This document shows, piece after piece, positions 55,001 through 64,000 of a DNA stretch of 64,000 nucleotides. Both the position numbers and the translations under genes were made by a program. The notes under the pieces are model-generated. The model saw only the letters and a list, made by a program, of their open reading frames with translations. It was not told the origin of the DNA and made no database searches. Within the stretch, counting starts at the first letter, position 1. Every line of letters begins with the position of its first letter. The stretch spans positions 62,001 through 126,000 of the forward strand of contig MKTL01000024.1 in NCBI GenBank assembly GCA_001897605.1. The letters run 5' to 3'. The stretch is from Clostridiales bacterium 38-18. GTDB lineage: Bacteria > Bacillota > Clostridia > Peptostreptococcales > Acidaminobacteraceae.

Positions 55001-56059
55001 CTATAAGATAACCTTTTCTACATATTCGGATGTAAACAATTTAAGCATTGCACCATACTCCATTTTAAATGACAGAATATCGCCAACCTTATAATCCGAT
55101 TTCGCAAGTGTAAAATCAAGAATCATATGATCGCTTGAGGCACCTAAAATCTTAAGTCTCTCATCAACAGGAATAAGATTTGTATGATCCACATCTTGCC
55201 TTCCAATTGCAACGATACCACGCTGTATCATCCCTTGATCCTCAAATATAGGCTTATTGCCAAATGCATCCATCCCTATTAATCCTCTAGGAACTGAATT
55301 CTTAAATTTATATTCTACGATTTGAGCCTCTAATATAAACGCATCATCATGCGTTCCTGGAATTTGCTCGCCATACGCGGCTTCTCTACCGAGTACAATC
55401 CCTTCGCCGATACGTAGATTATTAATTCTATTAGGTAAAGAGTCCCCATCTAATAGGTAAAGGCTACTTGAATTACCCCCAGAAACAATATTGAGAGTCA
55501 AGTTATATGTTTTCTCTATATGATTGGCAAGAGCAGTCAGTTCACTTAAGTTATCAGGTGTAGGTATTACGCCACCATAGCAGGTTAAATTCACACCGAT
55601 ACCTTCAACCTTGATCCATTCATTTTTGAGAATTAAAGGCATTACCTGATCAACATCTTCAGGCAAAAATCCTTCTCGAAGATCACCTAAATCAAACATG
55701 ACGACAATTCGGTGCTTTATCCCCTGATTCATAGCAGCTTGATTAAGTGCCTCTATGGTTTCAAGCTCTGAGTTAAAGCTAATGTCAGCAAATTTGACGA
55801 CATCCTCAACCTCTGAAAGCATCGGTAATCTAAGTAGGATCTTCTCACAAGGAAGCTCTTTCAGCTTAATTAAGTTCTGAATTCTAGAATCAGCAACCGC
55901 ACTCACTCCAGCTTCTAAGCAGATTCTAGCTAGATTTATATCGGCAGAGTGGACTTTAGTTACAACAAAAATATGGATGTCTTTAGCCTTTGCTTTATTT
56001 ACAATAATTTCTGTATTTTCTTTCAGCTTAGTTTTATTGATCACTACGCGTGGATACAT
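55001..56059 (-). CDS. orr: ornithine racemase
   Basis: A PLP-dependent racemase of the alanine-racemase-like fold type III, 352 residues. The PLP lysine is in IHIFVVTKVHSADINLAR, with VMFDLGDLREGF and IVSGGNSSSLYLL later. It converts L-ornithine to the D-form used by the aminomutase. Sequence alone cannot distinguish ornithine from other amino-acid racemases, but the position after ord-ortAB-oraSE fits Orr of Acetoanaerobium sticklandii. It is nine bases after mutL and is the last gene of the operon. Confidence 0.88.
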   Translation of the reverse strand: MYPRVVINKTKLKENTEIIVNKAKAKDIHIFVVTKVHSADINLARICLEAGVSAVADSRIQNLIKLKELPCEKILLRLPMLSEVEDVVKFADISFNSELETIEALNQAAMNQGIKHRIVVMFDLGDLREGFLPEDVDQVMPLILKNEWIKVEGIGVNLTCYGGVIPTPDNLSELTALANHIEKTYNLTLNIVSGGNSSSLYLLDGDSLPNRINNLRIGEGIVLGREAAYGEQIPGTHDDAFILEAQIVEYKFKNSVPRGLIGMDAFGNKPIFEDQGMIQRGIVAIGRQDVDHTNLIPVDERLKILGASSDHMILDFTLAKSDYKVGDILSFKMEYGAMLKLFTSEYVEKVIL

Positions 56060-56068
56060 TAGGACCTC

Positions 56069-57442
56069 CTAATCGATTTGAAGAGATTTTTTCATTAACA
56101 ATAACGCAGAAGTTTCATGCTCCTTTGATAAAACACCCAGCGAAGCCATAATATAGTCATTATCAATTAGAATTTGTGTTTCTTTGTTTGGTAAGAGCTT
56201 ATTACCAAGATAATGTTCTGTTATTGTTTTCAATAATGTTACACGATTTGGAAGTCGAGTACAAGCCCCTCCCGTTCCCACAATATACTTAATGCTGGTT
56301 AAATCCTTACCTTCTGCATATGTTTTTTTTCCGCCGCCACCATATAAAGTTCTAAATCCTCCAGCATGTCGATCTGCCGAAACGACAATTGCCTCTTTAG
56401 CTAAGCGCTCGACAAATGCGATCTGAAGCTCTGATTTTGGAATAGGAAGATGGGATTCAATTAAATGTGACAATTCTTGATCATCAACAGACAAATCCTT
56501 CATCAGAGTCTCTCTGCCAATCATCTCAACAATATTCCTCATGTTAACATAAACACCTAAATCACCCTCTACGGTTCTCTTAGAAATTGGCTCCGGACTT
56601 ATAAGTATTCTGGATACTTCCTCACTACCTTCGGTAACTGAATGTATATCCGTTGTAGCGCCCCCAACATCTACAGTCATCAAATCCCCAATGTCATTTT
56701 TCAACAGCTTTGAAGCTTCCATCACGGCACCAGGCGTCGGAATAATTGTTCCAGAAACCAGTTCTCTTATATGCTCCATACCAGGCGCATGTATGATGTG
56801 CATCTCAAAAATATCTTGTATTACCTTTCTAGCTGGTTCAACGTTTAAAAGATCAATTTTAGGATAAACATTTTCAACGATATAGAGCTGTTCACTTTTT
56901 CCAGCCTCTTCAAAAATCAATTTGATTTCATCGTGGTTTTGAACATTACCCGCATATAGCACAGGTGCGTCAAAGTCCAATGCAGCAATAAGCTCGGCGT
57001 TATAAATAGCGGTTTCAGTTTCGCCATAATCGACACCACCAGCCAACATTATGATATTAGGGCTTATTTGCTTTAGCCTTGCTATATCTGTTCTTTTTAG
57101 CTTACCGGCAGTAACCATGTGAAGATTTGCGCCGGCACCTAGTGCTGCTTCTTTAGCTGCCTTCGCCGTCATGTCATAAACTAATCCGTGTACAGTCATC
57201 TTTAGACCGCCTGCAGCACTACTTGTGGCCAGCAGCTTATTATAGCTCAAATCAGACACGCCAAACGAACTTTTAAGATCGTCGATTGCCTCTTGAAGAC
57301 CAATTCTAACATCGCCCTGCTGCACACTAGTTGGAGCTTGACCTTGACCGACGAAGGAAGGGTGATCTGTGTCTATGCCGTTGAAAGCATTTACAACCGT
57401 CGTTGTACTACCTATTTCAGCGACTAATATGTCAATTTTCAT
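56069..57442 (-). CDS. MutL/GlmL-family ASKHA ATPase, aminomutase reactivation factor (predicted)
   Basis: The 457-residue protein has ASKHA ATPase segments: DILVAEIGSTTTVVNAFNG near the start, NIIMLAGGVDYGE, LMTVDVGGATTDIHSV and YIVGTGGACTRLPNR. It belongs to the GlmL/MutL proteins that sit beside B12-dependent mutases. In ornithine clusters a homologue is conserved and likely re-activates OraSE by releasing damaged cobalamin. I start at 57442 where GGAGG precedes the ATG (MKIDILVAEIG). It follows oraE by 142 bases containing a terminator, so its expression is probably reduced. Confidence 0.85.
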   Translation of the reverse strand: MKIDILVAEIGSTTTVVNAFNGIDTDHPSFVGQGQAPTSVQQGDVRIGLQEAIDDLKSSFGVSDLSYNKLLATSSAAGGLKMTVHGLVYDMTAKAAKEAALGAGANLHMVTAGKLKRTDIARLKQISPNIIMLAGGVDYGETETAIYNAELIAALDFDAPVLYAGNVQNHDEIKLIFEEAGKSEQLYIVENVYPKIDLLNVEPARKVIQDIFEMHIIHAPGMEHIRELVSGTIIPTPGAVMEASKLLKNDIGDLMTVDVGGATTDIHSVTEGSEEVSRILISPEPISKRTVEGDLGVYVNMRNIVEMIGRETLMKDLSVDDQELSHLIESHLPIPKSELQIAFVERLAKEAIVVSADRHAGGFRTLYGGGGKKTYAEGKDLTSIKYIVGTGGACTRLPNRVTLLKTITEHYLGNKLLPNKETQILIDNDYIMASLGVLSKEHETSALLLMKKSLQID

Positions 57443-57525
57443 ATTGCCTCCATCTACAGACATATATTAAGTAGTTACTAAGTAAATAGCTTTGATTAGT
57501 AACGTAAATACACATCTAAATCTTT

Positions 57526-57584: not shown

Positions 57585-59798
57585 TTATTCGCCTCTTTGA
57601 GCTCTACGCTTTTTAACTAAGAAGGTTGCGACATTTACACCTCGGTCATATCTACCAAAGCCTTCATCCATACCATTGTCTCTAGCGATATCAGGTGTAA
57701 CCTGAGTCCCACCAGCACAAATGATAAAACGATCTCTTACACCTTTTTCAACTGCATACTCATGAATGCGTTTCATGTTTTTGTAATGAACATCATCATG
57801 TGAAATGATAGTTGATGCAAGAATGACATCTGCATTGATCTCTATAGCAGCATCTACTAATTTTTCAACTGGTACGGATGTGCCAAGATATTCAACTTCA
57901 CAGCCGTATTTCTCGATACCACCGTGTTTAATATCGATGACTTCTCTAAGACCAACTGAATGCTCATCTTGACCAACCGTTGCAGCTACGATCTTAACTG
58001 GATGATCATTGAATTCGCCTCTAATCTCATCTTCACTCATAATTTCTGGTTCTGGTGGAATAACAAGTGAATTCATGTCGAGATCCATATCAAGAACCCC
58101 TTTAAGTTGAACTCTTGTACCCTCAGATGGGTGCATTTGTTCGATGTGAATCACTTCTACATCTTTAAGGTTCATTTTTTTAGCGAACTCGATTGCAGCA
58201 AATTGCGCTGGTCTTAATCCGATTGGTAGTAAGATTTCAAGTTGTACCACGCCATCGCCTAACCATTGTACTTCTGGTTTAACGTAGTTAGATTCACCTT
58301 TTTCACCTCTGTATTTTTCAGTTTCAGCCATACGTTGGTTGACGTTATCGTTTTCATCAAGCTCATCGATGAACACGATTTTTTCAGGTTTTTCAAATGT
58401 ACAACCACCGATTAAATCAGATGGATTTTCTACATTGTATTGTGCAACGTTATTGTAACCATAGTGAGCGGTTACAGGTGCCATATAGTCTGTCGCTCTT
58501 TCATAAACCGTACCAACACCTACGCCACCATCGATCTTACGGCCGATACCATCGCCATTTCTTTCAGGATAAATGCCTGAGTCTACGAAAAAGCCTTGCT
58601 CAACCGCATTAAAGTAGCCGCCCGCTTTTACGATTTCTTCTAAATAAAGAACCGCTCTTTCCTTAAGCTCTCTTGCTTTATCTCTTAAATAACCTTCGTC
58701 TTTAAGTTCAACCATATCCATCAATCCATCAAGACCAGCAAACGTTTGCTTCGCCGTATTACATGCCTCAATGTTGTACATATGCCAAGGTACATTTCTA
58801 CCTTCATCTGGCGTAATGGTAGATTGAATATCTGCAGAGGTTAATCTAGAGATCAACATGTTCATAACGTGTGTTACCGTTGCTTCTCTTGAAGATGAAG
58901 TGATATACTTCGTGTTCATTTGTGCACGCATTTTGTACTCAGTGAAAAGGTCACGAAGCGCAACTGCGTATGGTAAATCTAGCTTCATGCAAGGTGCTGG
59001 TGATGAAGTTGGTGGTACTGTAGAAAGTGAGATATTTGCTTTTGGCATACCTACTTTATGTGAGTAGAGCGCATTGATACCGTGTTGTACCATTAACTCA
59101 GGCATAACCTTCCAAGCTTCTCTAGCAGTTGCATTTGCATTATGTGCGCCGTCGATTTGAACCATATCAGCCCAAGTCATAACTTTTTTAGATTCTGCAG
59201 CATCCACAAATGAACGAACCATATTGATATTTCTGTAAAGAACATTGTATTGTGGATCTTGATGCGCGCCATTTACGCCTTCTTCTGCAAGCATAACCGC
59301 TACATCTGGACCAGCAACACCTGATACATATGAGTGATAATTGATTGGTCTGCCTACTTCTTCTTCAATCAGGTCAAGTGCTTTTCTGTGCGCTCTAACT
59401 TGCTTTCTAGAAATTGGAACCCCGCCTATACCTTGTGGTGTCCCTTCAATAAGACCATCAAAGTGTGATTGACCAGCAGTTCTGATAACCATAATATGGT
59501 CAGCGCCATGCCAAGCAGCCATTCTCATACGTCTAATATCATCTTCAAATCTTCCTGAAGCGATCTCAGTTGTAATGGTATTGTTTGGTTGTGGATCGAT
59601 ATTGCCAAAGTATTGTGCTGCTGGCATTGGTATATAGTTTTTAAGCGGTGTAGACATATCGCTAAATTCAAAAGGACCGTAAACTTGCTTTTCGCTTCTT
59701 TCTCTCCAAGTCCAACCACGTCTCTTTGGTCTATAACTTTCAAGATCTTTCAATATCTCTTTTACATCTATCTTTTTATTGATATCTAATTGAGTCAT
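57585..59798 (-). CDS. oraE: D-ornithine 4,5-aminomutase, large subunit
   Basis: OraE binds adenosylcobalamin and PLP and moves the 5-amino group of D-ornithine to C4, giving 2,4-diaminopentanoate. The 737-residue protein has a TIM-barrel first part and a C-terminal B12 domain. The cobalt ligand motif is DEHSVG with His613 and the PLP lysine is Lys624 in IDIKHGG, 11 residues apart as for His618 and Lys629 in the A. sticklandii enzyme. ILASTIISHDDVHY and IICAGGTQV complete the B12 fold. It overlaps oraS by one base (TAATG). Confidence 0.97.
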   Translation of the reverse strand: MTQLDINKKIDVKEILKDLESYRPKRRGWTWRERSEKQVYGPFEFSDMSTPLKNYIPMPAAQYFGNIDPQPNNTITTEIASGRFEDDIRRMRMAAWHGADHIMVIRTAGQSHFDGLIEGTPQGIGGVPISRKQVRAHRKALDLIEEEVGRPINYHSYVSGVAGPDVAVMLAEEGVNGAHQDPQYNVLYRNINMVRSFVDAAESKKVMTWADMVQIDGAHNANATAREAWKVMPELMVQHGINALYSHKVGMPKANISLSTVPPTSSPAPCMKLDLPYAVALRDLFTEYKMRAQMNTKYITSSSREATVTHVMNMLISRLTSADIQSTITPDEGRNVPWHMYNIEACNTAKQTFAGLDGLMDMVELKDEGYLRDKARELKERAVLYLEEIVKAGGYFNAVEQGFFVDSGIYPERNGDGIGRKIDGGVGVGTVYERATDYMAPVTAHYGYNNVAQYNVENPSDLIGGCTFEKPEKIVFIDELDENDNVNQRMAETEKYRGEKGESNYVKPEVQWLGDGVVQLEILLPIGLRPAQFAAIEFAKKMNLKDVEVIHIEQMHPSEGTRVQLKGVLDMDLDMNSLVIPPEPEIMSEDEIRGEFNDHPVKIVAATVGQDEHSVGLREVIDIKHGGIEKYGCEVEYLGTSVPVEKLVDAAIEINADVILASTIISHDDVHYKNMKRIHEYAVEKGVRDRFIICAGGTQVTPDIARDNGMDEGFGRYDRGVNVATFLVKKRRAQRGE

Positions 59799-60175
59799 TA
59801 CTTGTTACCTCCCTTGAAGATTTGGATAGCATCATCCCAATGTTTACCTTCGATTAATTCAAGACCCGCTGTGCGCACATCTAAATTCTTTTCTTTAGCG
59901 ATTCTATAGATCACATGACCTACGCCATGGCCTATTAAACCTCTATCAATAGCGCCGTCAACTAATGGTTGCGCTTCTAAGCTTGAAAAACCCATACGAA
60001 GTAAAACTGAACGTTCAATTGCTGGTGAGGTATGTGACTTTGCTAAGTCAAGTAATGGATCTACAATTTGTTCTACTAACTCCCAAAATCTTTCCTTTAA
60101 AGCTTCATCAGAAAGCTGAGCGAGATGTTGATTTCTTTGTAAATAATCATCTTCTCTTTTTACAAAACCTTTCAT
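59798..60175 (-). CDS. oraS: D-ornithine 4,5-aminomutase, small subunit
   Basis: The 125-residue accessory subunit begins MKGFVKREDDYLQRNQHLAQLSDEALKERFWELVEQIVDPLLDLAKSHTSP (in pieces: DDYLQRNQHLAQLSDEALK, FWELVEQIVDPLLDLAKSHT), matching the OraS pattern, followed by ERSVLLRMGFSSLEAQ and GHGVGHVIYRIAKEKNL. It stabilises the large subunit and closes the active site. It precedes oraE with a one-base overlap and follows ortB by 52 bases. Confidence 0.95.
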   Translation of the reverse strand: MKGFVKREDDYLQRNQHLAQLSDEALKERFWELVEQIVDPLLDLAKSHTSPAIERSVLLRMGFSSLEAQPLVDGAIDRGLIGHGVGHVIYRIAKEKNLDVRTAGLELIEGKHWDDAIQIFKGGNK

Positions 60176-60227: not shown

Positions 60228-61634
60228 TTACTGTAATTCTTTAATCACTCTCTCAACATAAGCTTTGTCTTTTTTTGTTTCTAAACAAAGATAGTTGATT
60301 TCATCCTCGCTTAACTCAGCAAATGATTTTCCTGCGATTGCATTTTTGATTAGTGACACTCTGAGCTTGTCCATATCCAAATCGATTGCTTTAATTAGGT
60401 TTGGATGCCTTGGCAAGATAATGTTGACTCCTGGTTTTTGATCCACCGGATTACCAAAGTGAATATCGATACCATTGTCTCTTGCAAAGGATAATTGTGG
60501 CTGAATATGCTTACCTGCACCTGTGTACTCAGTCTCTTGAACCACGATGATTTGATCCGCATTCATTTCTTGAGCTATACTAAAGGCTGCTACTAAAGCT
60601 GTATTGCCTGCTGGTCCTTTTTCTAAGCCTTCGAGTTGTGCTAAAGCTTCTGTCATATAGAATACTTCGCCCTGAGTAACAGTGACGTATCTGTCCATAT
60701 AACGCATCGGTCTAGCTGCAGATCTCGGTACATCTGATCGATCAGGTACAGTAGAAAATGGTACGCCAAATCCAGTATGACCTGTCGTGAACGATTTTTT
60801 GTTAAATTGCTCATCACTTGCCATATGAAGTCCTGATAAATCAACGGAAGCACCTACAACCGTCGTATCTAAAGCACCTGCTTTAATCAAGCCTCTTGCC
60901 GTACCTGTAAGGTTACCGCCACCAGCATTTGTACAAACAACCACATCTGGATCTTTACCATATTTTTCTCTACATTGCATTGAAAGCTCATAGCCTAAGG
61001 TTTCAACACCAGCGATACCAAACGGGGTATAAAGAGATGCATTGAAATAGCCTGTTTCTTCAAGTAGGAGTAAAAATTGATAAAAGAGCTCTGGTCCAAC
61101 TGTTAGCTGTATGACCTCAGCGCCATAAGCTTCACATTTACGTGCTTTTTCTACGATTTCAGGTTGTCCAACCCCATTTGAATCAAATGTTTCTTGAACG
61201 ATGATACATTTGAGACCATGCATAGCTGCTTGTGAAGCAACTGCTGAACCATAATTACCGCTTGTCGCTGCGATAACGCCTTTATAACCAAGTCGCTTCG
61301 CATGATAAACCGCATTTGCTGCTCTTCTTGCTTTGAAGCTCCCTGAAGGATTACTCGCTTCGTCTTTTATAAATATTCTCGCACCCTTGCCTTCTGGTGC
61401 TAATTTTCTTGCTAGAGCCGTTAAATTTCTAAGCTCTAAAAGTGGCGTGTTACCAACACCTGTTTTACCTTGAATTTCTTGCATTTCTTCAAGCGTATAA
61501 CCGGTTTCACGCATCATTCTTTCATAATCAAAATGAATGCCATCTAGTTCAAAATCAGTATAGTCGATACCGATTGCTTGCTTCATAATTTCATTTCTTC
61601 GGCTCATTACCGCTGAATATGAATTATCTTTCAT
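60228..61634 (-). CDS. ortB: 2-amino-4-oxopentanoate thiolase, beta subunit
   Basis: A PLP enzyme of the threonine-synthase-like fold type II, with the PLP lysine in NPSGSFKARRAANAV, GVIAATSGNYGSAVASQAA and CTNAGGGNLTGTARG. OrtAB cleaves 2-amino-4-oxopentanoate with CoA to D-alanine and acetyl-CoA. The ATG at 61634 is preceded by GGAGGTGATC, a strong site; it overlaps ortA by 11 bases. 468 residues. Identification rests on fold plus its place in the ord-ortAB-oraSE operon. Confidence 0.93.
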   Translation of the reverse strand: MKDNSYSAVMSRRNEIMKQAIGIDYTDFELDGIHFDYERMMRETGYTLEEMQEIQGKTGVGNTPLLELRNLTALARKLAPEGKGARIFIKDEASNPSGSFKARRAANAVYHAKRLGYKGVIAATSGNYGSAVASQAAMHGLKCIIVQETFDSNGVGQPEIVEKARKCEAYGAEVIQLTVGPELFYQFLLLLEETGYFNASLYTPFGIAGVETLGYELSMQCREKYGKDPDVVVCTNAGGGNLTGTARGLIKAGALDTTVVGASVDLSGLHMASDEQFNKKSFTTGHTGFGVPFSTVPDRSDVPRSAARPMRYMDRYVTVTQGEVFYMTEALAQLEGLEKGPAGNTALVAAFSIAQEMNADQIIVVQETEYTGAGKHIQPQLSFARDNGIDIHFGNPVDQKPGVNIILPRHPNLIKAIDLDMDKLRVSLIKNAIAGKSFAELSEDEINYLCLETKKDKAYVERVIKELQ

Positions 61635-61944
61635 CTTGATCACCTCCAAAGAGAATATTTCTTAACTCTATTCCAATTTGAGTGATCTCTGGAACATAAT
61701 TGCCAAAAGAATGCTTATAGGTTGGTTCAAGTTCAATAACAGTCCCTTTTTCTATACGGCCTGTAATGGTCTTAACTTCTATTTCATCCCCTATATTTGC
61801 ATCTGTTTGACTAAACCCTTTAACCCACATTTCTAGAGGGACTTTTTTAGTATCCTCAGGCACTTGTGGTGCGCGCTCAGCTGGTGTTAATATCGTTCTA
61901 TGGATTCTAACCCAATCGCCTTTCTTAATTGTCAATTCCAACAC
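61624..61944 (-). CDS. ortA: 2-amino-4-oxopentanoate thiolase, alpha subunit
   Basis: A small 106-residue protein (MLELTIKKGDWVRIHRTILTPAERAPQVPEDTKKVPLEMWVKG in pieces: GDWVRIHRTILTPAERAPQVP, KKVPLEMWVKG) with beta-rich SH3-like content (IEVKTITGRIEKGTVIEL). It is the characteristic OrtA that accompanies OrtB in ornithine-fermenting clostridia; the pair forms the thiolase. It lies 5 bases after ord and overlaps ortB. Confidence 0.93.
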   Translation of the reverse strand: MLELTIKKGDWVRIHRTILTPAERAPQVPEDTKKVPLEMWVKGFSQTDANIGDEIEVKTITGRIEKGTVIELEPTYKHSFGNYVPEITQIGIELRNILFGGDQDER

Positions 61945-61949
61945 CTCTC

Positions 61950-62999
61950 TTATTTAACGAAACTTCTCATATCGCCCATGATTGCTCTAGGAACTGGTAA
62001 GTCTAACATTGTTTTTAAACCTGGTTCAGCATTGATAACTTGAGGAATCATGTTCACACACATTGCGATTGTACCCAAACCACCTTCAACTTCAGGTTTA
62101 ATGTTCATGTTAACTTCTGGTGAACCTTTTAATGTAATATAGTCACCAGTAAAAGTGCCTTCCATCTCTGGTTCGATTTGTTGTGGATGAATCATATTGA
62201 TTTTCACTTCGCCATCAACAAAACCTTGACCTGTCATATTTACACCAGCGACGTTGCCAGCAGCAGCGAAACCGTGTGGTGATTTTCTATCTACAGTTGT
62301 AACGATTGGTTTCATTTGTGTTTCAATTTTTTGAACATCCCAGCCAATTGCATCTGCGATCATATTGATTGACTCAGCAAAACCTACGTGACCAGCAAGT
62401 GAGCCATCTTCAACGCCTTTGTTGAACGCATCTACTGTAATACCAACGCCTTGCTCTTCCATAACTGCATGGCCAAATGGCGATAAGCTGTTCACGCGTT
62501 TTGCTTCAATTTCTGTTACGTCTGTCATACAGCCTGTTAATACAACCACTAATAAGTCCATAATTAAACCAGGGTTGATCCCAGTACCTAAAATTGTAAC
62601 GCCATTTTCTTTTGCTATTTTATCGAGTTCAGCTGCAAGTTCAGGACTTTGTGCTTTAGGATAAGACATTTCCTCTGCAGTTGAAATTACGTTGATTTTT
62701 TTCTCAAGAACGTGTTTTAATCTAGGAAAAGCTTTAGCAGTGAATGAATCCGTAGCTGTTAAGCAAATATCACAAGATTTTTCTGAAATGACTTCATCGA
62801 TGTTTTCATTAATAATGACTTCAGGTCTAGAGCCTCTTTCAACACCCAAAAGTTCGTATATACTTTTGCCAACTCTTTCAGGATTACGGTCACACACACC
62901 AACGATGTCTACACCTTTTTTAGTAAGAAGCATTTTTGCCATACCGCTTCCCATTGCACCAAAACCCCAAATTGCGACTTTAACATTTTCATTTCTCAT
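61950..62999 (-). CDS. ord: 2,4-diaminopentanoate dehydrogenase
   Basis: The NAD(P)-dependent dehydrogenase oxidises 2,4-diaminopentanoate to 2-amino-4-oxopentanoate with release of ammonia. The Rossmann motif is VAIWGFGAMGSGMAKMLLTK, with GVCDRNPERVGKS, GTGINPGLIMDLLVVVLTG and KPIVTTVDRKSPHGFAAAGN later. The family is similar to dihydrodipicolinate-reductase-like enzymes. I start at the ATG at 62999, which has GGAGG upstream, giving 349 residues. It is the first gene of the ornithine operon, downstream of a sigma-54 type promoter. Confidence 0.95.
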   Translation of the reverse strand: MRNENVKVAIWGFGAMGSGMAKMLLTKKGVDIVGVCDRNPERVGKSIYELLGVERGSRPEVIINENIDEVISEKSCDICLTATDSFTAKAFPRLKHVLEKKINVISTAEEMSYPKAQSPELAAELDKIAKENGVTILGTGINPGLIMDLLVVVLTGCMTDVTEIEAKRVNSLSPFGHAVMEEQGVGITVDAFNKGVEDGSLAGHVGFAESINMIADAIGWDVQKIETQMKPIVTTVDRKSPHGFAAAGNVAGVNMTGQGFVDGEVKINMIHPQQIEPEMEGTFTGDYITLKGSPEVNMNIKPEVEGGLGTIAMCVNMIPQVINAEPGLKTMLDLPVPRAIMGDMRSFVK

Positions 63000-63052
63000 G
63001 ATTGCCACCTCCGTATTTTTCCCATCTTGATAGGGATCCAACCTAAATATAA

Positions 63053-63069
63053 AGCAATTCCTATGCCAA
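63053..63069 (-). promoter_or_regulatory. sigma-54 (-24/-12) promoter of the ornithine operon
   Basis: The minus strand reads TTGGCATAGGAATTGCT (63069-63053). GG at -24 and GC at -12 are separated by exactly 10 bases, and the sequence agrees with the sigma-54 consensus TTGGCAC-N5-TTGCW at nearly all positions. Transcription would start near 63042, giving a ~42-base leader to ord with GGAGG. No sigma-A promoter was seen between it and ord. Confidence 0.82.
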
Positions 63070-63074
63070 CTTTT

Positions 63075-63108
63075 TTTAAACGTTCAAATTAGTGTTGAAG
63101 CGTTTAAA
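63075..63108. promoter_or_regulatory. dyad immediately upstream of the -24 element
   Basis: TTTAAACGTTCAA (63075-63087) and TTGAAGCGTTTAAA (63095-63108) form 13-bp arms with one extra G in the right arm. It lies just upstream of the sigma-54 element. The right arm core AAGCGTTT faintly recalls a CcpA cre site (two mismatches). Operator function is inference. Confidence 0.5.
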
Positions 63109-63195
63109 TTACTCAGTAGTAGCAAAATTAAGTGTGAATTCACTCTGTTACTATTTTGTAAATTTTCTGAATAATCCAATTGTTAAGCCGAAATA

Positions 63196-63260
63196 GCAAA
63201 TATTTTTGCATTTATTGAGCAAAATATTTTGCTATATATGTAATGTGCAAAATATTTTGC
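63196..63260. repeat. three-copy palindrome array, candidate enhancer sites
   Basis: Two identical perfect palindromes GCAAAATATTTTGC at 63219-63232 and 63247-63260, and a variant GCAAATATTTTTGC at 63196-63209. Centres are 23 and 28 bases apart. They lie 155-220 bases upstream of the sigma-54 start, the usual place for upstream activating sequences, and 55-120 bases upstream of the EamA start. Confidence 0.85.
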
Positions 63261-63301
63261 ATGATTTGCTTTAAAATTATGAATACGTGTTCTTTTCAAA
63301 A

Positions 63302-63310
63302 TGATATAAT
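63302..63310 (+). promoter_or_regulatory. extended -10 of the EamA gene
   Basis: Plus strand TGATATAAT: a perfect TATAAT (63305-63310) with the TG extension. No good -35 is found 16-18 bases upstream, consistent with an extended -10 or an activated promoter. The gene starts 28 bases downstream, after AGGAGG. Confidence 0.6.
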
Positions 63311-63337
63311 TGAAGCACTAAAGTTTAGGAGGCTTAT

Positions 63338-64000
63338 ATGAAGCAATCGTCACCCTATAAAATCTATTTTCTGATGTTTCTAGCCACCTTCTTTTGGGCA
63401 GGCGCTTTTATTGCTGCCAAACTAGGCGTTTATGATTTGAGTCCAGTTTTGCTTACCTTTCTTAGAATGGGACTTGCGGCGGTTATACTCTTCCCAATAT
63501 TAGTTTTCAAACAGAAGCAAACCTGGCAGTTAGAATTATCTGAGCTGAAATATGTTCTTGCAACTGCAATTGTAGGCATGATCGGCTATCATTTGTTTTT
63601 TTTCACAGCTCTAAAATACACCACTGCTTCAAACGCCTCCATGATTAATGCGACCAATCCATTAATTACTGCACTCTTAGCAACTTATTTTGCAGGTGAA
63701 AGACTCTCAATTAAAAAAATCATGTTACTCCTTATGGCCCTCACTGGTGTTTTATACATCATTACCAAGGGCAATCTGATTTCCATATTAGAGCTAGACT
63801 TTAATAAAGGTGACTTTATCATGCTATGTGGTACTTTCTTATGGGCGGTCTATGGTATTTTAGTAAAAAAAATAGTCCCAATGATGGGACCCTTAAAATT
63901 AACAACCTATTCATTTTTGTTTTGTGCTGTACTCCTGTTACCTTTTGCGACATATGATTTCATAAAAACACAAGCGTATTTGGTTGGTGGCTCACCGTAT
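63338..64000 (+). CDS. EamA/DMT-family transporter, N-terminal part (runs off window)
   Basis: 221 codons are present, opening MKQSSPYKIYFLMFLATFFW, then AGAFIAAKLGVYDLSPVLLT and LRMGLAAVILFPIL. Further features are YTTASNASMINATNPLITALLATYFAGERLS and GDFIMLCGTFLWAVYGILVKK (first and second EamA repeat). About seven of ten membrane helices lie within the window. Family members export amino acids or metabolites. Divergent arrangement with the ornithine operon and shared palindromes suggest a link with ornithine or alanine traffic, but that is inference. AGGAGG stands at the right distance before ATG 63338. Confidence 0.9.
   Translation, partial: MKQSSPYKIYFLMFLATFFWAGAFIAAKLGVYDLSPVLLTFLRMGLAAVILFPILVFKQKQTWQLELSELKYVLATAIVGMIGYHLFFFTALKYTTASNASMINATNPLITALLATYFAGERLSIKKIMLLLMALTGVLYIITKGNLISILELDFNKGDFIMLCGTFLWAVYGILVKKIVPMMGPLKLTTYSFLFCAVLLLPFATYDFIKTQAYLVGGSPY

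Follow-up and report, generated by a model that had tools for sequence, protein, structure and literature searches.

An ornithine fermentation operon of Clostridiales bacterium 38-18 with a conserved sigma-54 promoter element and palindromic sites for a putative OrdR activator

Analysis of a 64,000-nucleotide stretch of the Clostridiales bacterium 38-18 genome (hereafter the window) led to an ornithine fermentation operon, ord-ortAB-ora-orr, which is very probably driven from a sigma-54 promoter at 63069-63053 of the minus strand, with the enhancer-binding protein OrdR acting via three GCAAAN4TTTGC palindromes located further upstream (we give this reading a probability of about 0.93). The operon runs in the order ord, ortA, ortB, a 125-aa ORF, oraE, a GlmL-related gene and orr, and the six genes named by NCBIfam models all score above their cut-offs. 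Among the matches listed, the closest named Ord belongs to Fusibacter bizertensis (93%), followed by Fusibacter-like Clostridia. The features of the locus are as follows:

55001..56059, minus strand: orr, ornithine racemase (NF040742, above cut-off)
56069..57463, minus strand: GlmL-related ornithine degradation protein (Or-4; NF040744, above cut-off)
57585..59798, minus strand: oraE (NF040743, above cut-off)
59798..60175, minus strand: 125-aa ORF between ortB and oraE, probably oraS, judged by position and size only
60228..61649, minus strand: ortB (NF040741, above cut-off)
61624..61944, minus strand: ortA (NF040739, above cut-off)
61950..62999, minus strand: ord, the leading gene of the operon, encoding 2,4-diaminopentanoate dehydrogenase (540 bits to NCBIfam NF040740, whose cut-off is 400)
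63053..63069, minus strand: predicted sigma-54 promoter (-24 GG / -12 GC), TTGGCATAGGAATTGCT (zero-mismatch match and conservation)
63196..63209, no strand assigned: putative OrdR upstream activating site, promoter-proximal, GCAAATATTTTTGC (fits GCAAAN4TTTGC; half-sites invariant)
63219..63232, no strand assigned: putative OrdR upstream activating site, middle, GCAAAATATTTTGC (exact palindrome; 13 of 14 columns invariant)
63247..63260, no strand assigned: putative OrdR upstream activating site, distal, GCAAAATATTTTGC (exact palindrome; kept with some substitutions)
63302..63310, plus strand: TGATATAAT, an extended -10 that may belong to a sigma-A promoter for EamA (read from the sequence)
63338..64000, plus strand: EamA-family transporter gene, divergent, running past the window end (Pfam PF00892)

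The promoter element TTGGCATAGGAATTGCT bears its GG and GC exactly ten bases apart within TTGGCA-N6-TTGC (minus strand, 63069 to 63053) and is the sole zero-mismatch match to TTGGCAYRN4TTGCW in the 64-kb window, while at up to two mismatches the same pattern gives 15 matches in the window, which is not above chance. Throughout the genome TTGGCAN6TTGCW occurs 23 times, versus five for the reversed control, and for this reason the sequence match taken alone is moderate evidence and the weight rests on conservation. The transcription start of ord is predicted near 63041 and served as the reference for the distances of upstream sites. A sigma-70 promoter for ord was rejected, as a sigma-70-like scan of 62950-63400 passed no candidate (shuffles mean 2.2). 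The 17-mer recurs at G000:C16:373141-373157 (L209), about 55 bp before an ORF (L209:1572-2408) that by eye resembles a methyl-accepting chemotaxis protein and has a permease-like ORF next to it; no GCAAAN4TTTGC is present near this second copy.

All three palindromes fit GCAAAN4TTTGC, the middle and distal ones being identical (GCAAAATATTTTGC) and the proximal one a variant (GCAAATATTTTTGC). They are located approximately 155-219 bp upstream of the predicted start, and with respect to the promoter (63053-63069) their positions (63196-63260) fall within 100-250 bp upstream. At up to one mismatch, GCAAAATATTTTGC is found in two places of the whole genome (3,417,378 bases, 30 contigs), both before ord; at up to two mismatches it has three matches within the window, a number that is not rare (6 of 100 shuffles reach it). 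GCAAAN4TTTGC occurs in eight places genome-wide, three of them before ord, and the reversed control pattern in two. The five other sites were treated as chance occurrences: four fall inside open frames (537-1824 nt) and the fifth overlaps a frame of 159 nt. These data confirm what the earlier note had read upstream of ord, namely a sigma-54 -24/-12 element with GG and GC ten bases apart and, 155-220 bases upstream, three 14-bp palindromes (two identical and one variant), which stand far above chance. A direct and inverted repeat at 63075-63111, between the palindromes and the promoter, was rejected as a part of the system because relatives do not conserve it. On the other side of the palindromes, TGATATAAT is a perfect extended -10 before EamA with no recognisable -35, and a scan requiring a -35 gave no match.

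Conservation was studied in the order, where a search of 297 genomes detected Ord in 187. Upstream regions were compared for 108 of these 187 (30 loci from the search and 78 fetched; G140 and G056, where ord starts at a contig edge, are among the remainder), and dinucleotide shuffles of the same upstream DNA provided the chance baseline. The -24/-12 element (up to one mismatch, ord strand) is present in 102 of the 108 regions (shuffles average 2.5 and reach at most 7; none on the opposite strand), and exact GCAAAN4TTTGC in 92 with a total of 190 sites (shuffles average 0.3 and reach at most 2; none for the reversed pattern). The two occur together in 88 of the 108 regions, and 71, summed over the per-family lines, carry at least two exact palindromes. 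The elements are thus kept in other ord clusters, close relatives included. The six regions lacking the promoter element are G146 (194 bases only), G134, G161, G081, G007 and G031; G007 and G031 are the only two examined from family f7, and neither has an exact palindrome or an OrdR match within 900 bp. An exact palindrome is missing from 16 regions, 14 of which have a one-mismatch form, the exceptions being G116 (193 bases only) and G031. Alignment of the window with seven close relatives gave a mean column identity of 59%, and the invariant blocks were the three palindromes, the -24, the -12, the ribosome-binding site and the start codon. Other invariant columns upstream of the ribosome-binding site were scattered singles, and the distal palindrome was more variable than the proximal and middle copies.

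Spacings between neighbouring sites (exact or one-mismatch, n = 122) fall into clusters of 19-24 (84), 28-32 (14), 50-55 (6) and 206-209 (13), with five others; a circular phasing statistic depends on the period chosen and on shared ancestry, and nothing is claimed beyond the spacing clusters. Two exact palindromes 4-24 bases apart were found in 24 of 41 genomes of the family (reversed control 0 of 41), in a search that is blind to single sites and to other spacings, such as the pairs of G134 and G161, which are 51 bases apart. Since every close-pair match in those 24 genomes lies within about 460 bp upstream of ord (places compared by hand), OrdR seems, as judged by close pairs, to regulate a single operon in this family. 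In family f11, a third GCAAAN4TTTGC falls within the 3' portion of the ordR reading frame, about 206-209 bp further upstream than the proximal pair and at about -431 to -454 from ord (L032, L035, L243, L245, L247, L248, L249 and L251). It reads in frame as Ala-Lys-(Ile/Leu/Met)-Phe-Ala in the eight genomes where the frame was found, out of 12 tried, and may represent an enhancer site within the very gene that encodes its activator.

The genome encodes RpoN as a 476-aa ORF with an N-terminal AID domain and a C-terminal SRRTVAKYRD stretch, which we take to be the RpoN box. The Sigma54_activat profile gave ten strong and six weak matches in the genome, and one of the strong ones is located on the ord contig (L018:4246-5646, minus strand; 66245-67645 in window numbering), its 3' end being 2.2 kb past the window end, at a distance of 3.2 kb from the start codon of ord. 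The enhancer-binding protein had been described as unlinked, because the window ends short of its gene; this was wrong, since the gene and ord share a contig, with the gene 3.2 kb upstream, and in most of the relatives examined it is likewise close to ord. The protein harbors PAS, Sigma54_activat, AAA lid and HTH_8 domains, placing an AAA+ activator with a Fis-type helix-turn-helix near ord, and its own sequence reads GSFTGA; the form G-x-FTGA is present in 44 of 45 relatives. Strict Walker A and Walker B patterns, probably too strict, matched 36 and 16 of the 45, respectively. The Fis-type helix is less conserved than the AAA region, with 8 of 44 versus 75 of 169 columns at 90% or more (43 aligned proteins). 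The best NCBIfam match is the PrdR model (NF041552), but the score of 426.6 bits is well below the cut-off of 795 and the target operon is different, so that the protein was rejected as PrdR. The linked PAS-AAA-Fis enhancer-binding protein, which has orthologues near ord in the relatives searched and in Acetoanaerobium noterae, was identified as OrdR.

For 29 of the 30 best OrdR matches (the window genome included), the orthologue and ord share a contig, with the orthologue at most 4.7 kb upstream; in the exception, G122, ord is about 1.8 kb from the contig end. In 78 of the 108 regions, the end of an OrdR match is no more than 900 bp upstream of ord. Acetoanaerobium noterae has the same linkage: ordR is followed by a palindrome pair (22 bp apart) that starts on the final base of the ordR stop codon, then by a -24/-12 element and then by ord. 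The named loci are the best 80 of 382 relatives, of which 64 have at least 3 kb of upstream sequence. Among these 64, the promoter, an exact palindrome (both within 500 bp) and OrdR are all present in 36 and all absent in 19, the latter including, by title, Clostridium magnum, Propionigenium maris, four Christensenella-like records and several ruminant MAGs. Mixed patterns account for the other nine (four promoter and OrdR, two promoter only, two OrdR only, one promoter and palindrome); three of the 64 thus have a promoter with no OrdR match in the locus, and two have an OrdR match 7-9 kb upstream with no promoter within 500 bp. Such joint presence and absence is the pattern expected of an activator and its sites, and since the loci share ancestry no probability is attached to it.

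Several observations concern the surroundings of ordR. In the window genome it comes after an aspS-like ORF and an RseC-family gene (L018:4246-7925; RseC scanned, the aspS-like ORF read from sequence), while in Acetoanaerobium noterae a glyA-like ORF and ordR come after a fragment resembling aspS and an RseC-like ORF (L291:75-5371, names from sequence), so that the aspS-like and RseC neighbourhood is common to both. An extra exact GCAAAN4TTTGC at L291:4012-4025, about 30 bp inside the 5' end of the Acetoanaerobium noterae ordR, reflects either autoregulation or chance. The record carrying the operon in that species (NZ_CP154629.1, 2.63 Mb) is filed as a plasmid, bears housekeeping-like genes and looks like a chromosome. 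Between the linked activator gene and ord, the window genome has an EAL-GGDEF gene on the same strand as ord (L018:2243-4108; 64242-66107 in window numbering, past the window end) and the divergent EamA gene. The EAL-GGDEF gene lies between ordR and ord, on the strand of both, in the window genome and in seven (L051-L057) of the best 80 of 382 loci, and because of this position and orientation it is probably co-transcribed with ordR. Its product may tune or report OrdR activity; a coupling of the ornithine switch to cyclic-di-GMP signalling in the Fusibacter lineage via this gene, the enhancer staying with ord, is an improbable idea at present.

The palindromes sit between ord and EamA, 78-142 bp ahead of the EamA start codon, and could accordingly be taken for operators of the divergent gene with no relation to ord. 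However, they persist in L052, L053, L054 and L056, where the upstream neighbour is EAL-GGDEF, as well as in many loci where it is ordR, and both of these neighbours have the same orientation as ord. An EamA match close to ord occurred in only two of the best 80 of 382 loci, immediately divergent in one of them (L051). Because they are kept before ord next to EAL-GGDEF or ordR, the palindromes belong to ord, and a role as EamA operators, which such conservation largely refutes, was rejected as extremely improbable. OrdR-bound sites could also serve both genes, ord from its sigma-54 promoter and EamA from a sigma-A promoter, which would place fermentation and export under common control. The distal palindrome does end about 42 bp upstream of the good extended -10 of EamA, but an opposite-strand scan of the 108 upstream regions, that of the window included, gave no -24/-12 element toward EamA, and immediate divergence of EamA is confined to the window and L051 (among the window and the best 80 of 382). 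Moreover, activators of the OrdR class usually act on sigma-54 promoters only, and we regard such co-control as unlikely.

The ten strong Sigma54_activat matches would also allow another enhancer-binding protein of the genome, instead of the linked OrdR, to bind the palindromes. Against this, orthologues of the linked protein track ord and the palindrome across families, and at least four other enhancer-binding protein genes (C1:210304, C1:416145, C4:27168 and C16:42438) have TTGGCAN6TTGCW elements of their own within about 2.5 kb, which makes a different binder very unlikely. From its linkage, from the joint presence and absence and from its HTH_8 domain, we infer that OrdR is the protein that binds the palindromes.

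For the switch itself, the presence, conservation, specificity and linkage of the parts are direct observations, and together with rpoN and the elements conserved in relatives they strongly support the sigma-54 and enhancer control of ord that the earlier note had proposed. Looping and ATP-driven promoter opening are general features of the protein class to which OrdR belongs. OrdR (PAS-AAA+-Fis), whose gene is 3.2 kb upstream of ord and reads in the same direction, would bind the three palindromes and oligomerise on them, would reach the sigma-54 polymerase at the -24/-12 element through DNA looping, and would open the ord promoter at the expense of ATP whenever its PAS domain is active. By analogy, the PAS domain may respond to ornithine or a derivative, and an ornithine-pathway signal is plausible; this is the first candidate because the reported inducers of RocR are arginine, ornithine or proline (PMC4813224, PMC4348106).

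RocR of Bacillus subtilis is the nearest functional parallel, being, according to the available text of these two sources, a sigma-54 activator of an arginine/ornithine catabolic operon via UASs. RocR/SigL controls rocABC, rocDEF and rocG, and citrulline and ornithine are named as RocR metabolites (PMC4813224, PMC4348106). The RocR pathway differs, as it uses arginase and ornithine aminotransferase. The letters of the RocR UAS were not found in the available text of the literature searched, these two papers included. Seven rocA-type loci had no palindrome within one mismatch, and a G300-centred search gave a palindrome pair in none of the four genomes reached.

Sigma-54 control of ord is of an already known kind, of which the window organism is a well-supported further case. 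As far as the available text of the source goes, sigma-54/OrdR control of ord-ortBA-oraSEF-orr-nhaC was predicted in five Clostridiales species (Nie et al., 2019; PMC6615313), with a -24/-12 consensus of TTGGCATN5TTGCT, UASs that mostly precede the promoter by 100-250 bp, and a distinct OrdR UAS motif whose letters are in a figure and supplement. The operon, activator class, -24/-12 consensus and UAS range are the same here, but no Fusibacter is named among those five species, and in our genome two genes separate ordR from ord; Acetoanaerobium noterae, with its ordR-ord arrangement, is likewise outside the five. For C. difficile, the sections available report a -24/-12 promoter mapped upstream of ord and assigned to OrdR/CD0441 (Soutourina et al., 2020; PMC7438776). 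The novelty suggested by the earlier note was therefore overstated, given that these two papers already describe such control. Full-text literature searches gave no match for the 14-mer GCAAAATATTTTGC, the OrdR motif letters of PMC6615313 (figure and supplement) being outside their reach, and none for diaminopentanoate with sigma54.

Compared with the window, the C. difficile ord promoter TTGGCACGATTTATGCTTT differs in the spacer and the -12 region (PMC7438776), a source whose available sections give no UAS letters. Table 4 of that paper, in the part available, enters ord as 'NR' in the sigL-mutant column, and ornithine does not appear in the accessible text of two C. difficile sigL/rpoN mutant papers (PMC9130780, PMC12069270); in the same portions of these three sources, no expression evidence was found for dependence of ord on sigma-54. 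The same table lists hadA and ord with identical 19-base -24/-12 sequences, which may be real or a copying slip (PMC7438776, Table 4); over its first 17 bases, that sequence differs by one change from the ord promoter of G104, and likewise from that of G055. The window 17-mer TTGGCATAGGAATTGCT equals the first 17 bases of the prdA promoter of C. difficile, as given in that table; the model of the proline reductase activator PrdR is the best NCBIfam match of the linked activator, yet under its cut-off and with a different target operon.

Ornithine is among the amino acids that anaerobic clostridia ferment, and in C. difficile its fermentation has been reported, in the available text of the source, to support non-inflammatory gut colonisation (PMC8803604). 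As a regulatory principle, the switch is ordinary among the amino-acid fermentations of clostridia. The present analysis adds an operator in written form, figures for how widespread and how specific it is, the displaced position of ordR in the Fusibacter group and the exclusion of the EamA reading. With its operator written as GCAAAN4TTTGC, usually as a pair about 22 bp apart and with close pairs only before ord in the family, the system makes it possible to mark regulatory regions in the genomes of ornithine fermenters and supplies a defined DNA target with which the signal of OrdR can be tested.
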